Shown here: in pieces, positions 24,794 to 36,582 of the stretch | Layout of the letters: every line of letters begins with the position of its first letter | Numbering within the stretch: position 1 is the stretch's first letter | The notes under the pieces: model-generated | Told to the model about the DNA's origin: nothing | Seen by the model: only the letters and a program-made list of their open reading frames with translations | Database searches by the model: none | Program-made: the position numbers and the translations under genes | Assembly (NCBI RefSeq): GCF_001684965.1 | Contig: NZ_MAYG01000031.1 | Span: 124,001-188,000, forward strand | Reading direction: 5' to 3' | Source of the DNA: Chryseobacterium arthrosphaerae | Lineage (GTDB): Bacteria; Bacteroidota; Bacteroidia; Flavobacteriales; Weeksellaceae | DNA: 64,000 nucleotides

Positions 24794-24800
24794 TCCCATG

Positions 24801-24880
24801 CTTTAGGGGTGTCTGTTATAGACAGACTGAGATTTTACCCTTTGAACCTGATCTGGATCATACCAGCGTAGGGAAAAGTA
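24801..24880 (+). promoter_or_regulatory. TPP riboswitch (THI element) of the thi operon
   Basis: The conserved THI-box parts occur in order: AGGGGTGTC (24805), GACTGAGATTTTACCC (24825), TTTGAACCTGATCTGGATCA (24841) and TACCAGCGTAGGGAA (24861). It binds thiamine pyrophosphate and reduces expression of the genes behind it. It ends about 70 bases before thiS. There is no obvious terminator hairpin, so control is probably at translation. Confidence 0.95.
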
Positions 24881-24948
24881 GATGACTTTTGCTGTACATT
24901 CCATTGTACAATAACAGCCATTCCTAAAGTATGTTTAAATTATTAGGA

Positions 24949-28270: not shown

Positions 28271-29047
28271 ATGAATCATCAGAAATTAATAATAGCAGAC
28301 CGTACTTTTGAATCCAGACTGTTTTTAGGAACCGGAAAATTCGGAAGTCTGAAAGAGATGGCATCTTCCGTTTTGGCTTCAGAAACAGATATGGTGACAA
28401 TGGCCCTGAAAAGAATTGATGCCCAGTCTGCAGAAGATGACCTGCTGGACTCCTTGCGGGAAACAAAAGTGCATCTTTTGCCCAATACTTCAGGAGCGAG
28501 AACAGCCAAAGAGGCTGTATTAGCGGCCCAACTGGCAAGAGAAGCGCTGGAAACCAACTGGGTAAAGCTTGAAATTCATCCCGATCCGAAATATTTATTG
28601 CCGGACCCTATTGAAACCCTTTATGCAACTGAAGAGCTGGCAAAACTGGGCTTCGTAGTAATGCCTTATATTCACGCAGATCCTGTATTGTGTAAACGGC
28701 TGGAAGATGCGGGAACAGCTGTGGTAATGCCTTTGGGAGCACCCATTGGAACGAATAAAGGCTTGAGAACATTAGACTTTTTAGAAATCATCATCAGCCA
28801 AAGTAATGTGCCGGTAGTGGTAGATGCAGGAATAGGAGCACCATCAGATGCAGCCAAAGCGATGGAGATGGGAGCTGACGCCGTTCTCGTCAATACAGCG
28901 ATTGCCGTGGCCGGAAACCCTGTCAATATGGCTGTAGCCTTTAAAGAAGGAGTGATTGCAGGAAGAAAAGCCTTTGAATCAGGATTAGGAGCCATAGCCA
29001 ACCATGCCGAAGCTTCAAGTCCGCTGACCTCATTTTTATTCGAATAA
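28271..29047 (+). CDS. thiG: Thiazole synthase ThiG
   Basis: 258 residues, normal length. It forms the thiazole phosphate from deoxyxylulose 5-phosphate, dehydroglycine and ThiS thiocarboxylate. Family stretches: [15 protein letters not shown] near residue 13, [30 protein letters not shown] (with the Schiff-base Lys near 98), [13 protein letters not shown] and [20 protein letters not shown]. It is 45 bases downstream of thiE and 8 bases upstream of thiH, as is usual for a ThiGH pair. Confidence 0.95.
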
Positions 29048-29055
29048 ACAAAATC

Positions 29056-30174
29056 ATGAAAAGCTTCAGAAATGTATTTGATCAATATGGCTGGGATGAA
29101 GTAAAAAACAGGCTCAGAAAGGTAACTTTATCAGACGTCCGCTACAGTCTTCAAAAAAAGAATAAAACAATGGATGACTTTCTGAATCTGATTTCCCCGG
29201 CGGCCTCAGGGGAGCTTGAGATCATGGCTAAAATGACCCGTTCCCTTACTCAGAAACGTTTCGGGAAAACGATTCAGTTGTATGCGCCGCTGTATCTCAG
29301 CAATGAATGCCAGAATATCTGTACCTACTGTGGATTCAGTTTAGATAATCAGTTAAAAAGAAAAACACTTTCAGATACAGAATTGCTTGTTGAAGCTTCA
29401 GTCCTGAAGTCAATGGATGTAAATCATGTATTACTGGTAAGCGGAGAAGCCAATAAGATTGTGGGAGTTCCTTATTTCCAGAATGCTGTACGCCTGTTAA
29501 AACCTCATTTTTCCAATATTTCTATTGAAGTGCAGCCTTTGGCAGAAGAGGAGTACAGTCTTCTTCACAAGGAAGGTGTACATTCCGTATTGGTGTACCA
29601 GGAAACTTATCATCAGGAGGTTTATAAAGAATATCATCCCAGGGGAAAAAAATCAAATTTTGATTTCCGTCTGGATACGCCTGACCGTATTGGCAGGGCA
29701 GGAATCCACAAAATAGGACTGGGAGTGCTTCTTGGACTGGAAGATTGGCGTGTAGACAGCTTTTTCAACGCATTACATATTGATTTTCTCCAGAAACAGT
29801 ATTGGAAAAGCAGATTTTCGGTTTCATTTCCAAGGCTGAGACCGGCTGAAGGAATTATTGAGCCTAATTTTATTATGGAAGATAAAGACCTGCTTCAGCT
29901 GATCTGTGCTTACCGGATCTGGAATGAAGACCTGGAAATCTCTATATCTACCAGAGAAAATGAGATCTTCAGAAATAATATCGTTTCGCTTGGTGCCACA
30001 GCCATGAGCGCAGGTTCCAAAACCAATCCCGGAGGCTATTCTGTGGATAAGGAGTCTTTAGAACAGTTTGAAACCAGTGACGAAAGGAGTATGGATGAAA
30101 TCAGGATGATGATCAGAAAATCAGGATATGATCCCGTAATGAAAGACTGGGATTCTGTTTACAGTGGATTTTAG
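29056..30174 (+). CDS. thiH: 2-iminoacetate synthase ThiH
   Basis: 372 residues. This radical-SAM enzyme cleaves tyrosine to dehydroglycine for the thiazole ring. The cluster motif CQNICTYCGFS near residue 86 gives the CxxxCxxC pattern. Other family parts are VLLVSGEANKIVG, RLRPAEGI and the C-terminal STRENEIFRNN and SAGSKTNPGGYS. The use of ThiH, not the oxygen-dependent ThiO, fits an operon that can work at low oxygen. Tightly linked to thiG and thiF. Confidence 0.95.
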   Translation: MKSFRNVFDQYGWDEVKNRLRKVTLSDVRYSLQKKNKTMDDFLNLISPAASGELEIMAKMTRSLTQKRFGKTIQLYAPLYLSNECQNICTYCGFSLDNQLKRKTLSDTELLVEASVLKSMDVNHVLLVSGEANKIVGVPYFQNAVRLLKPHFSNISIEVQPLAEEEYSLLHKEGVHSVLVYQETYHQEVYKEYHPRGKKSNFDFRLDTPDRIGRAGIHKIGLGVLLGLEDWRVDSFFNALHIDFLQKQYWKSRFSVSFPRLRPAEGIIEPNFIMEDKDLLQLICAYRIWNEDLEISISTRENEIFRNNIVSLGATAMSAGSKTNPGGYSVDKESLEQFETSDERSMDEIRMMIRKSGYDPVMKDWDSVYSGF

Positions 30175-30193
30175 ATTTCAATTAAAATAAAAT

Positions 30194-30901
30194 ATGAAAG
30201 AAGATGTTTTTTCCCGGTACAGCCGGCAGATATTCATCGATGAAATAGGACTGGAAGGGCAAAAAAAGATTATGGCATCAAAAGCACTTGTTGTGGGAGC
30301 CGGTGGCCTCGGAAGTCCTGTTATCCAATATCTGGCGGCTGCCGGTGTCGGAACTTTAGGAATTGCAGATTTTGATCTTGTAGAATTGCATAACCTAAAC
30401 CGTCAGATCATTCACACGGAAGACAGAACGGGAATGTCTAAAGTAAAAAGTGCTGAGGTATTCGTGAAAAACCTTAATCACCAGGTGAATCTGATTCCCA
30501 TTGAACAGAAAATCAATGAAGCCAATGCCGCAGACATTCTTTCCCGGTTTGATATCATCATCGACGGATCTGATAATTTTTCAACAAGATATCTGGTTAA
30601 TGACACCTGTGTGAAGCTGAAAAAAACATTGGTGTACGGAAGTATCCTTGGGTTTTCAGGACAAGTGGCTGTATTTAATCATCGGGGAAGCAAAAACCTG
30701 AGAGACCTGTTCCCGGAACCTCCGTCTGACGGAGATATGCCGGACTGTGACAGTTTAGGCGTTCTGGGAGCTTTGCCGGGAATCATAGGAAGTATGATGG
30801 CACTTCAGACCTTAAAAATCATAGCTGATCTTCCTGTGATTTTAAATCAGATGACATGGGTAGATACACTGAATTGGAGATTTCAGACGATTGATTTTTA
30901 A
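30194..30901 (+). CDS. thiF: ThiF/MoeB/HesA-family adenylyltransferase
   Basis: 235 residues with an N-terminal SRQIFIDEIGLEGQ and nucleotide loop VVGAGGLGSPVIQYL near residue 33, then DLVELHNLNRQ and DGSDNFSTRYLVND. It adenylates the ThiS C-terminus. The zinc-binding CxxC pairs of E. coli ThiF/MoeB are missing; the conserved Cys before GVLG (PDCDSLGVLG) is kept. No rhodanese domain is attached. Operon position after thiH makes ThiF more likely than MoeB. A terminator follows at 30951. Confidence 0.88.
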   Translation: MKEDVFSRYSRQIFIDEIGLEGQKKIMASKALVVGAGGLGSPVIQYLAAAGVGTLGIADFDLVELHNLNRQIIHTEDRTGMSKVKSAEVFVKNLNHQVNLIPIEQKINEANAADILSRFDIIIDGSDNFSTRYLVNDTCVKLKKTLVYGSILGFSGQVAVFNHRGSKNLRDLFPEPPSDGDMPDCDSLGVLGALPGIIGSMMALQTLKIIADLPVILNQMTWVDTLNWRFQTIDF

Positions 30902-33440: not shown

Positions 33441-33448
33441 TATCTTTG
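33441..33448 (+). promoter_or_regulatory. -7 element TATCTTTG of the long-leader transcript
   Basis: Perfect TAnnTTTG match just before the structured leader. The start would be near 33455, about 380 bases before the receptor ATG. Confidence 0.65.
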
Positions 33449-33454
33449 CCGGGT

Positions 33455-33580
33455 AATTATCAAGAATCTCTAGATGGGATAGCAACCTGCAAAAACAAGC
33501 AAGGTGCTGCAAGCGATAAGCCGGATCTTCCGGAAAAAATGTTTATCATTCTATCATTACTCCCATCTTGAATTTTTTGT
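33455..33580 (+). promoter_or_regulatory. S-box (SAM-I)-like structured leader RNA
   Basis: The paired sequence AGCAACC (33481-33487) and AAGGTGCT (33501-33508) is the conserved P3 signature of SAM-I-type riboswitches. A candidate P1 pairs TTATC (33457) with GATAA (33515). The usual GAGGGA/P2 part is shortened, so this is a variant at best. AGATGGGA (33472) is also complementary to TCCCATCT (33561), which is followed by a run of six T, and this gives an alternative terminator-like fold. Ligand binding is inferred, not shown. Confidence 0.5.
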
Positions 33581-33652
33581 TTTAAAGCTAAAATCAAATG
33601 TTTAAAAAGAAGGGAAATCACATTTCATCAGTACTTTTTTATTCTTCGGATC

Positions 33653-33745
33653 ATGAAGGGAATCTTCATTACTCTGATATGTTCTCATGCCATTTCTACA
33701 TGCGCATGTGCTGTTGTTTCTAGCCGTTCTATTTCTAAAAAATAA
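33653..33745 (+). CDS. Short Cys-containing leader peptide (candidate)
   Basis: A 30-codon frame from the ATG at 33653, reading MKGIFITLICSHAISTCACA and then VVSSRSISKK before TAA. It has three Cys codons in ten residues, including a CAC motif, in a leader that also has an S-box-like RNA. There is no strong ribosome site, as is usual here. It ends 92 bases before the receptor start, with a hairpin between. It may be a sulfur-sensing upstream ORF or a chance frame; conservation would decide. Confidence 0.45.
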   Translation: MKGIFITLICSHAISTCACAVVSSRSISKK

Positions 33746-33767
33746 TACAAACATTTCGAATGCTCTG

Positions 33768-33791
33768 GTAACCTTACAACTTTAAGGTTAC
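33768..33791 (+). promoter_or_regulatory. Hairpin between leader frame and receptor gene
   Basis: 9-bp perfect stem GTAACCTTA / TAAGGTTAC, 6-base loop, no T run. Candidate attenuation or translation-control hairpin. Confidence 0.5.
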
Positions 33792-33837
33792 AGGAATTGC
33801 ATTGCCTGAAAAAACCTGACAATAAAAAAATAACAAC

Positions 33838-36582
33838 ATGCATAATTTCAGAAAAAAAATTTTTATTCCTTCCATTACGCTTATCTCTACATTTTATTAC
33901 GCACAGAAGGATACTTTACAATCTAAGAAAATAGAAGATGTGGTGATTCTTGGATCAAGAGGTTCAGGAAGATCATTAACAGATACCCCGGTTCCGGTAG
34001 ATATCATTAATATTTCAAAAATCTTAAAACAAAGTCCGGCCAATAATATCAGCCAGGCTTTAAATTACATTGTACCTTCATTTTCATCAACTTCACATAC
34101 CGTTAATGATGGAACTGATTTTGTAGATCCTGCGCTCCTGAGGGGATTAGGCCCGGATCAGGTTCTGGTGCTGGTAAACGGAAAAAGAAGATATCAGTCT
34201 TCGCTTATTAATGTTACCCTTACTCCGGGAAGAGGTTCTGTGGGAACCGACCTTAATGCTATTCCTGCCTTTGCTTTAGAAAAAATTGAAGTTTTAAGGG
34301 ACGGTGCTTCTGCCCAATATGGGTCCGATGCCATTGCCGGAGTGGTAAACCTGGGATTGAAAAAAAGATTGGGACTTTCCGGACAGGTATTTTTAGGAGG
34401 GTATGCTTCTCCTGTTACCAATAATTTCTCTGGTGGAATAGATGGACAGACCATTTCTGTAGATCTTAATTATGGAGCCAGAATAGGAAAAACAGGATTC
34501 TTTAACGTTACTGGTTCTGCCCAATACCGGGATCCTTATTCGAGGGCCGGAGTAAGAAACGGAGATATTTTCAATGCTTATAATGCCATTCATTACAGGG
34601 CTTTACAGGATGGAATTAATATTGACGGGTTGTATAAAAATATTACCAATACTCCCAATTCCCAGCAAATTATCAACACAATCAAGCAATATGCAGTGAA
34701 GGTAGATTATTTTGGGAATGATTTTCAGTCTCAAATCTCAGGGGCAAATAGTATTGCTGATCTTCAAAAAATATTGGACAGGGATTTTACCTCTCAGGAA
34801 CTTAATTACAGAGGATTGGAAAGGAAAGATTTCAGCTTGAGGGCAGGCCAGTCTAAATTACAGTCCGGGCAGCTCTTTTTTAATTCTGAAATTCCTCTTA
34901 GTGATGAATGGAAAGTCTACTCATTTGGAGGCTACAGCTACCGTCTTGGAAATGCCGGAGGATTTTACAGGCTTCCGAACAATGAGAGAAATATAAATTC
35001 AATTACGCCCAACGGATATCTTCCTCAAATTGAAGCAACAGTAAATGACTATTCTCTTGCTGCCGGAATCAAAGGAAAATGGAACGGCTGGAATGTAGAT
35101 TTCAGCAATACATTTGGAAAAAATACCTTCGGTTTCGGGGTCGTAAATACTTTTAATGCATCGCTTACAGATAATTCTCCAAGAACTTTTGATGCAGGAG
35201 GATCTGAATTTTCACAAAATACCGTCAATCTTGATTTCTCCAAAAAATATGATGTACTGAAGGGGTTGAACATTGCATTTGGGGGCGAGTACAGGCATGA
35301 AAATTATAAAGTAAATGCCGGAAAAGAAAATTCTTATGCCTCATACGATATTTTTGGCCGTGTGGTAACCGCTCAAACGCCTGAAAATGAAAAAGTAACT
35401 GACTTTTTTAAGAATATAAGACCGGCCGGAGCCCAGGTTTTCCCAGGGTTCAGCCCGGAAAATGCAGTGTCAGGAAACAGAAACAGTATTGCAGCTTATG
35501 CTGATGCCGAGTTGGAAGTTACTGATGGCTGGCTGTTGGAAGGAGCTTTACGATACGAGAATTATTCAGACTTCGGGTCTACATTCAATTATAAGGTGGC
35601 AACCAATGTAAAGGTGGCTCCCAACCTGAACTGGAGAGGTGCTGTTTCCACGGGGTTCAGAGCGCCTTCATTGGCCCAGATCTATTACAGTTCCACTTCT
35701 ACTTTGATCCAGCAGGGGGTAACAACACAGGTAGGTACTTTCAGGAATAATTCTGAAGCTGCACAGGCATTGGGGATCCCAAAATTGAAACAGGAGACTT
35801 CACAGTCCTACAGCACAGGAATTACATGGAAGATTCCGGCATTAAGCCTGACTTTCACGGCAGATGCTTATTTAATAAAGATTAAGGACAGAGTAGTTTT
35901 AACTGATCTTTTCTACCGTCCTGATGGAAGTTTTACTCCTGGTTCAGACCAGGCCGTTCTACAGAATGCTTTTGATCTCGCAAGAGCAAGCGCTGCCAAC
36001 TTTTTTGCCAATGCAGTAGATTCTCAGACAAAAGGGCTGGATATTACTATTTCGCAGAATTCAAAAATCTCATCAGGGGTTTCTTTGGAGAATAATCTGG
36101 GAATCAACTTTAATCAGACGAAAAGAATCGGAGACATCCATGCATCACCGAAATTGGTAAGCCAGATCAATAATTATTTCTCAGAACCTAACAGAATTTA
36201 TTTTGAAGAAGCTGTACCCCATGTAAAAGCTACATTAGCCAACACGGTAAGGGCTTCCGGCTTTACTTTCGTACTGCGCAATTCATTTTTTGGTAAAGTG
36301 ACTGATGCAGATGTTGTAGATGCTGATTTTGATGGAGTAAAGGGAGGTACAGAACATTTTGTCCTTAACAGCCGTTTGGTAACAGATCTGTCTGTAGGGT
36401 ATAATTTTAATAAAAATATTTCGGCAACAATAGGCAGCAATAACATCTTCAATATATTGCCTTCTAAAAGCCCCAATATACCGTCATTAACAGCAGATAA
36501 CCAGTTTGTCTATTCCAGGCAGGTTTCCCAGTACGGGATAGGGGGAAGATTCTTATTTGCAAGAATTGAATTCAGTTTCTGA
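33838..36582 (+). CDS. TonB-dependent receptor with long regulated leader
   Basis: 914 residues. A signal peptide of about 22 residues (ending YYAQ) leads to a plug domain with EDVVILGSRGSGRS, ALLRGLGPDQVLVLVNGKRR and EKIEVLRDGASAQYGSDAIAGVVN, then a beta-barrel ending in aromatic ARIEFSF, a normal BamA signal. The plug follows the siderophore/cobalamin-type pattern rather than the SusC pattern. Its leader carries an S-box-like RNA and a Cys-bearing short frame, so I infer uptake of a sulfur-containing nutrient or of something needed in sulfur limitation. No transport partner is adjacent. Confidence 0.9.
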   Translation: MHNFRKKIFIPSITLISTFYYAQKDTLQSKKIEDVVILGSRGSGRSLTDTPVPVDIINISKILKQSPANNISQALNYIVPSFSSTSHTVNDGTDFVDPALLRGLGPDQVLVLVNGKRRYQSSLINVTLTPGRGSVGTDLNAIPAFALEKIEVLRDGASAQYGSDAIAGVVNLGLKKRLGLSGQVFLGGYASPVTNNFSGGIDGQTISVDLNYGARIGKTGFFNVTGSAQYRDPYSRAGVRNGDIFNAYNAIHYRALQDGINIDGLYKNITNTPNSQQIINTIKQYAVKVDYFGNDFQSQISGANSIADLQKILDRDFTSQELNYRGLERKDFSLRAGQSKLQSGQLFFNSEIPLSDEWKVYSFGGYSYRLGNAGGFYRLPNNERNINSITPNGYLPQIEATVNDYSLAAGIKGKWNGWNVDFSNTFGKNTFGFGVVNTFNASLTDNSPRTFDAGGSEFSQNTVNLDFSKKYDVLKGLNIAFGGEYRHENYKVNAGKENSYASYDIFGRVVTAQTPENEKVTDFFKNIRPAGAQVFPGFSPENAVSGNRNSIAAYADAELEVTDGWLLEGALRYENYSDFGSTFNYKVATNVKVAPNLNWRGAVSTGFRAPSLAQIYYSSTSTLIQQGVTTQVGTFRNNSEAAQALGIPKLKQETSQSYSTGITWKIPALSLTFTADAYLIKIKDRVVLTDLFYRPDGSFTPGSDQAVLQNAFDLARASAANFFANAVDSQTKGLDITISQNSKISSGVSLENNLGINFNQTKRIGDIHASPKLVSQINNYFSEPNRIYFEEAVPHVKATLANTVRASGFTFVLRNSFFGKVTDADVVDADFDGVKGGTEHFVLNSRLVTDLSVGYNFNKNISATIGSNNIFNILPSKSPNIPSLTADNQFVYSRQVSQYGIGGRFLFARIEFSF

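Follow-up and report, generated by a model that had tools for sequence, protein, structure and literature searches.

A SAM-I/IV riboswitch followed by a putative Met/Cys attenuator peptide upstream of a TonB-dependent receptor gene in Chryseobacterium arthrosphaerae

The window, by which we mean the whole 64,000-nucleotide stretch of the C. arthrosphaerae genome analysed here (contig NZ_MAYG01000031.1, positions 124,001 to 188,000), contains a gene for a TonB-dependent receptor, identified as such by plug and beta-barrel domains that both score above the cut-off. The gene is preceded by a leader with the following features.

33441..33448, + strand: match to the flavobacterial -7 promoter element TAnnTTTG, TATCTTTG; a candidate from sequence matching
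33452..33549, + strand: SAM-I/IV riboswitch aptamer (RF01725); covariance model score 52.7 bits, gathering threshold 41.1
33562..33597, + strand: linker from aptamer to leader ORF, CCCATCTTGA followed by conserved sequence of the TTTTTGTTTTAAA type that reaches the leader ATG
33598..33723, + strand: 41-aa leader peptide ORF, MFKKKGNHISSVLFYSSDHEGNLHYSDMFSCHFYMRMCCCF; intact in 51 of 52 orthologous leaders, nonsynonymous/synonymous ratio 0.44
33653..33745, + strand: overlapping 30-codon frame of the initial annotation; unconserved in the comparison of 52 leaders
33700..33717, + strand: presumed regulatory codons Met-Arg-Met-Cys-Cys-Cys, from codon conservation; one sense codon lies between the run and the stop
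33768..33791, + strand: 9-bp hairpin GTAACCTTA-CAACTT-TAAGGTTAC, 44 nt 3' of the leader stop and kept in relatives
33824..33847, + strand: receptor start region, candidate translational-attenuator pairing with leader positions 33688-33723; complementarity -14.1 kcal/mol
33838..36582, + strand: TonB-dependent receptor of 914 aa, presumably the regulated gene; both PF07715 and PF00593 exceed the cut-off

An S-box-like RNA had been proposed for this leader in the initial annotation, and the covariance search bears this out: the element belongs by score to the SAM-I/IV family, from which SAM binding is predicted, and an Rfam covariance search returned no other RF01725 match in the whole genome. 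Just upstream, TATCTTTG fits TAnnTTTG, which we take to be the flavobacterial -7 consensus. The linker between aptamer and leader ORF presumably acts as the expression platform; alifold predicted no common structure for the stretch from aptamer to ATG. The leader ORF begins 49 nt after the aptamer, with its ATG 146 nt beyond the start of the aptamer match, and encodes a peptide whose C-terminus reads FYMRMCCCF-stop. A second riboswitch of the window is a TPP element at 24795-24891 (80.1 bits); genes of the ThiG, ThiH and ThiF families occupy 28271-30901.

The initial annotation had pointed to a short frame with three Cys codons in ten residues as part of a further sulfur sensor of this leader, one based on translation. 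That frame exists (MKGIFITLICSHAISTCACAVVSSRSISKK, with Cys at residues 10, 17 and 19), and comparison of orthologous leaders supports the idea of such a sensor strongly while assigning it to a different reading frame. A search of 173 genus genomes for SAM-I/IV aptamers, run with stricter filters under which weak matches are lost, gave 54 copies in 52 genomes; the second copies in G102 and G162 (G102:C1:1990083-1990185 and G162:C88:254360-254463), which sit elsewhere before an ORF starting MKVKFILKNPKEDKNTIYVRVR and have no Cys leader, were set aside, leaving 52 leaders for analysis. Neither the start nor the length of the 30-codon frame is kept among them, which is an outcome that the initial annotation had named as refuting its proposal. 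Its ATG is missing in eight, two of which have GTG instead and one of which is the frameshifted G159 leader, where the position is not strictly comparable; where the ATG is present, the frame is only two codons long in 20 of 44 leaders and 25-43 codons long in the other 24. Its Cys codons are an out-of-frame reading of the ORF at 33598-33723, which is +1 relative to it and starts 55 nt farther upstream. This overlapping ORF, of 40-42 codons, is intact in 51 of the 52 leaders, the sole exception being G159, a frameshifted leader in a 75%-complete genome.

Substitution patterns separate the frames in the same way. Across 43 distinct 41-codon sequences (the 42-, 40- and 20-codon rows being omitted), the relative nonsynonymous/synonymous ratio was 0.44 in the conserved frame and 0.36 over its last 21 codons, compared to 1.12 (1.29) in the 30-codon frame and 1.57 (1.94) in the third, indicating that only the conserved ORF evolves under coding-type selection. 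We therefore rejected the frame at 33653-33745, with its CAC motif, as the functional leader peptide: although its ATG survives in most leaders and roughly half of those keep a frame of some length, its lack of conservation and its substitution ratios make that reading extremely improbable. Among dinucleotide shuffles of 33550-33837, 72 of 5000 contained an ATG frame of at least 20 codons with three Cys in ten residues, and 35 of 20000 gave an ATG ORF whose last seven codons include three Cys or more. On both strands of the window, the ORF at 33598-33723 is the only ATG ORF of 6-90 codons with at least three Cys in the last seven. A protein database search with its peptide returned a single match, 80% identical and annotated as hypothetical.

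At the end of this ORF, among the 51 intact leaders (G159 dropped), both Met codons are invariant (51/51 each) and the three Cys codons are kept in 49, 51 and 51 leaders, the first being replaced by Gly and by His in two. The residue between the Mets varies (Arg in 37, Cys in 12, His and Gly in one each), as does the one separating the Cys run from the stop (Phe 39, Ser 5, Cys 5, Leu 1, absent in 1), and the Cys codons switch silently between TGT and TGC among relatives. The leader thus combines the hallmarks of an amino-acid attenuator, namely a short conserved ORF, a run of regulatory codons near its stop and a gene downstream. An MCCCF-stop pattern matched 44 times in 43 of the 173 genus genomes, compared to one match for a control pattern, and 39 of the 44 sit behind a SAM-I/IV aptamer; the other five are strays with no ATG upstream of the pattern's own. 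In the C. arthrosphaerae genome itself an MCCC pattern has five matches, and none of the four outside this leader belongs to a short ORF that starts with ATG and ends in the run; two of them (L033 and L034) do have an in-frame ATG, with a frame that runs well past the Cys run, and Rfam found only a tRNA at the four loci. Among 30 TonB plug loci of this genome analysed out of 63 listed, only the window receptor has a Cys-run ORF within 500 nt upstream.

A perfect 9-bp hairpin before the receptor gene had also been described, and it is present at 33768-33791. Related leaders retain it, with both sides changed at three of its pairs, and none of 47 aligned leaders carries a U-run directly after it, so that the leader of this genus lacks the signature of an intrinsic terminator expected of a transcriptional attenuator. 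In five leaders (loci L082, L072, L087, L073 and L080 of genomes G017, G111, G133, G137 and G177, respectively) approximately 250 nt of additional DNA stands between stop codon and hairpin; the hairpin of these leaders lies 288-294 nt after the stop but still 77-78 nt before the receptor ATG. The position of the hairpin is therefore tied to the receptor and not to the Cys codons. By eye, the extra DNA of G017 has inverted ends like TTTTTTGACGCAAAG...CTTTGCGTTAAAAA and resembles a small mobile repeat.

The 3' end of the leader ORF, 12 codons counting the stop (33688-33723), is complementary to the receptor start region at 33824-33847, and the predicted fold of 33598-33870 pairs the Cys stretch with the receptor start. 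The scan for such pairing covered 51 leaders, each from 10 nt 3' of its stop codon to a point 60 nt beyond the receptor ATG; G159, for which no receptor start was located in the sequence examined, was omitted. In 47 of them the best complementary site overlaps the receptor ATG, and the mean energy at the start region is -17.0 kcal/mol compared to -12.5 kcal/mol for the best other site. The window pairing is likewise the best site between leader stop and 60 nt past the ATG; one among 41 further gene starts of the window pairs as well as this, and none among 200 shuffles of the start region. Pairing of equal strength was reached by no more than 5% of unrelated starts in 46 of the 51 leaders and by no more than 5% of shuffled start regions in 44. 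In the five leaders with extra DNA the pairing still reaches -20.6 to -22.6 kcal/mol. Part of this complementarity is due to the self-complementary CAUG, and start regions swapped between species pair as well as cognate ones (-16.97 and -17.00 kcal/mol), so there is no co-change between species. Within these bounds, the predicted energies suggest that the Met/Cys stretch may pair with the receptor start, as in translational attenuation, in this genus. In Elizabethkingia, pairing at the start region is predicted at only -3.5 to -7.0 kcal/mol, with better sites elsewhere, and among 16 other leaders only three cysH-like ones approach the Chryseobacterium values (-14.4 to -16.8 kcal/mol). These three (L418, L419 and L420) precede cysH-like genes and have leaders ending in seven Cys codons.

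The arrangement recurs outside the genus. In Elizabethkingia miricola (L127) and four g287 genomes (L238, L239, L265 and L266), a SAM-I/IV aptamer is followed by a 62-codon ORF and then by a receptor gene. The N-terminus of this ORF is unrelated to that of the Chryseobacterium leader, and its end reads HSMCCCY, HSMCCCL or HSMYCCC. The L239 peptide is identical to that of L127, and the nonsynonymous/synonymous ratio over the four distinct sequences is 0.22. The L127 receptor is 66% identical to the window receptor, and those of the g287 loci resemble it; a fifth g287 genome with a SAM-I/IV aptamer, G636, has it only before a different gene. From aptamer start to leader ATG there are 140 nt in Elizabethkingia, compared to 141-148 nt in the 50 Chryseobacterium leaders measured. 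We analysed 54 SAM-I/IV loci outside Chryseobacterium, with eleven below-cut-off matches left out, and found no MCCC-type leader at the 50 that remain once the four g287 leaders are subtracted. A first long ORF was placeable at 41 of these 50 loci, beginning 124-174 nt from the aptamer start at 32 of them. Since the leader ATG stands at the same distance from the aptamer as these first long ORFs, the peptide mostly takes the place of the gene that the riboswitch controls.

Upstream DNA was available for 79 of 80 listed loci of receptor homologues (all except L163); a loose rule flagged 12 of the 79, of which four (L126, L127, L128 and L171) have clear Met/Cys-run leaders and eight were judged by eye to be chance, and most homologues have none. 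The L126 leader peptide is identical to that of G118. Two more distant receptors of the family have such leaders with no Rfam riboswitch match, namely one in G038 (MNKMIINISCTMCCCC) and one in a Bacteroidetes MAG (L171, MTKLMCTLRMCCCSC), the latter being followed by a terminator-like hairpin and a U-run. The pattern MGNATGTGYTGYTGY in 199 genomes of family f3 gave one clear leader, L226, among 30 loci analysed; of the remaining listed places we analysed only G303:C16, which is locus L123. At L123, two successive Cys leaders, MQELVSFGTLRRMCCCC and then MKKLMCCR, precede a SusC-like gene, with a strong hairpin after the second. L226, L363 and L428 are PhyH-like genes, an assignment resting on Pfam for L363, and have leaders approximately 50 nt upstream with four to seven Cys codons and several Met codons.

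We also surveyed 295 genomes of the class with a Met-Cys-Cys-Cys-Cys pattern that is blind to riboswitches. It matched at 129 places by hand count, compared to approximately 18 for the reversed control pattern. After 30 loci taken first, 96 more were fetched, of which L370 was unreadable, leaving 95; two second matches in already fetched regions were omitted and one place is L226. For these 95 we required an ATG upstream of the pattern's own, a stop within 12 codons and, no more than 700 nt away, an ORF of 130 codons or longer. Sixteen qualified, with downstream genes that are metY-like in seven cases, homoserine dehydrogenase-like in three, cysH-like in three, PhyH-like in two and OsmC-like in one. 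In the set of 30, a looser rule flagged 14, several of which start at the pattern's own ATG and are probably chance; this set adds the metY-like loci L328-L330 and the metX-like loci L334 and L335. One further locus, L347, which precedes a NIR_SIR gene, was included by eye and is unflagged on account of too many codons after the run. Downstream families were tested on ten representatives, and the others were classed by the resemblance of their N-terminal residues; the metX-like L334 does not reach the curated cut-offs of the MetX models, nor does L347 reach those of any NCBIfam model listed.

Twenty Met/Cys-run loci, hand-picked as 14 of the 16 (L420 and L428 omitted) plus six from the set of 30, were searched with Rfam, and 12 of these have a SAM-I riboswitch; in all 12 the closest ATG in frame with the leader follows the aptamer by 4-14 nt. 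For the 14 fetched loci the sequence upstream of the pattern extended to no more than approximately 300 nt, and a more distant aptamer would have escaped; the 12 come from four family labels (f55 and f56 with five each, f45 and f30 with one each) and are therefore not 12 independent events. In the reverse direction, two of 50 SAM-I loci (L479 and L493) have a leader under the strict Met/Cys rule, in a non-random sample of the 30 best-scoring and 20 hand-picked loci, all on the + strand and two from C. arthrosphaerae itself; the pairing is thus a minority arrangement. By eye, most of the 50 precede metH-like genes. At L479, also by eye, a SAM-I aptamer, a terminator-like hairpin and the leader MKKPDEQKLKISTVPNCKTIRMCMELCCSS precede a SusC-like gene, giving two serial control stages, while L462 has a CC-containing short frame that falls below the rule. 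The two C. arthrosphaerae loci, L476 (G000:C31:78228-78333) and L477 (G000:C12:599473-599569), have SAM-I aptamers before TonB-dependent receptors and no Met/Cys leader, and they indicate that SAM control of receptors is repeated in this genome.

We read the conserved ORF as an attenuator peptide gated by the SAM riboswitch, since its Met and Cys codons adjoin the stop, similar leaders precede sulfur genes and the aptamer lies upstream. On the strength of these sequence comparisons, the receptor leader is probably a serial arrangement of two sulfur sensors. At high SAM, the riboswitch would shut the leader, by acting on transcription or on translation initiation of the leader peptide, and the receptor would be off. 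At low SAM, the peptide would be translated. With charged Cys- and Met-tRNA, the ribosome would finish and leave, allowing the Met/Cys stretch of the RNA to pair with the receptor start and close it; with these tRNAs scarce, it would stall on the Cys run and cover the stretch, leaving the receptor start open. The leader would overall behave as an AND-type switch for sulfur starvation. We infer the stalling, the charged tRNA as signal, the pairing itself, the AND logic and the import of a sulfur source by the receptor from the parts and their order. For the Bacteroidota more broadly, we lean slightly towards a recurrent two-input leader, in which a SAM-I or SAM-I/IV riboswitch directly gates translation of a Met/Cys attenuator peptide such that sulfur genes and outer-membrane receptors are on only when SAM and charged Cys/Met-tRNA are both low.

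The complementarity to the receptor start makes its release by a stalled ribosome our preferred output in this genus, with Rho as the main alternative. In tnaC, a stalled ribosome shields the RNA from Rho. An analogous output here, with both sensors in place and Rho-dependent termination between leader and receptor, would accord with the absence of a U-run terminator in this genus, the lack of start-region pairing in Elizabethkingia and the tolerance of five leaders for approximately 250 nt between stop and hairpin; yet the complementarity in Chryseobacterium exceeds most controls and persists in those same five leaders, and we consider Rho a possible output that is rather less than likely.

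If the SAM riboswitch alone regulated the receptor, the ORF would be incidental or would encode a small protein of some other function, as the other SAM-I/IV loci without such an ORF and the two SAM-I-preceded receptors of the same genome might suggest. This is unlikely given that conservation is specific to the Met and Cys codons, that the Elizabethkingia peptide has an independent N-terminus and that the arrangement recurs at sulfur genes. The copper-responsive upstream ORF CruR of Bordetella offers a model for a peptide that acts during translation through cysteines binding a metal or reacting with a thiol signal, and both the Cys-rich end and the TonB-dependent receptor downstream would suit it. 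We give this little credence, as similar leaders elsewhere stand before Met and Cys synthesis genes and behind SAM riboswitches and as their ends are Cys runs mixed with Met, of variable length and with up to seven Cys (L226), like those of amino-acid attenuators. We are just as sceptical of classical transcription attenuation with the hairpin at 33768-33791 as terminator or antiterminator arm; the two-sided changes show that the hairpin is conserved, but it lacks a U-run and, in the five leaders with extra DNA, stays near the receptor and not near the Cys codons.

Known systems supply each of the parts. The closest counterparts of the riboswitch-gated attenuator peptide proposed here are the Cys-run short-ORF attenuators of Mycobacterium cys operons, which have the run near the stop and for which, in the available part of the report, no conserved terminator hairpins are described (Seliverstov 2005, PMC1262725). 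They are treated as polycysteine leaders by Canestrari 2020, as cited in the accessible text of PMC9031893 and PMC13236596, and the M. smegmatis case is termed translation attenuation in the available portion of the latter. Judged from these excerpts, the likeness lies in a short ORF with a Cys run near its stop upstream of sulfur genes, whereas the Mycobacterium ORFs are leaderless, actinobacterial and placed before cys operons. The window ORF is internal, stands behind a SAM riboswitch, has Met in its run and precedes a TonB-dependent receptor in a member of the Bacteroidota; with its ATG 146 nt past the aptamer start rather than at the 5' end of a transcript, it is not leaderless. The uORFC-8-2 motif before cysS in Rhodobacterales likewise encodes a leader peptide with adjacent Cys codons, but as presented in the accessible text it has two of them inside a stem and a 3' U-run fitting an intrinsic terminator, and no riboswitch is described there (PMC8632094).

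On the riboswitch side, the SAM-I/IV variant has been described (PMC2864571, available in part); the window aptamer is a member of it (RF01725) by score, SAM-I being RF00162, and differs from usual SAM riboswitches in that the first ORF downstream is a Met/Cys leader peptide and not the regulated gene. The Salmonella mgtA leader, which has a Mg riboswitch and the MgtL peptide, also joins a riboswitch to an amino-acid-biased leader peptide in one leader; according to the excerpt available, MgtL is rich in proline and the leader responds to Mg with Rho as its output, whereas the inputs of the window leader would be SAM and Cys/Met (PMC6386406). Clues to leader-peptide attenuation before amino-acid operons of Flavobacterium psychrophilum, as given in the accessible part of PMC9723704, mean that leader peptides are not new in themselves in this group. 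Our literature search found no Met/Cys leader in Bacteroidota and none joined to a SAM riboswitch. The parts are thus of known kinds, and the combination of SAM riboswitch and Met/Cys leader looks new.

If this reading is correct, the Bacteroidota would possess a natural two-signal RNA logic device that reads SAM and, via the ribosome, the supply of Cys and Met. It would make sulfur import the probable function of a TonB-dependent receptor so far uncharacterised, and it would furnish a sequence rule, a Met/Cys run before a stop and behind a SAM aptamer, by which further sulfur-regulated genes may be found.
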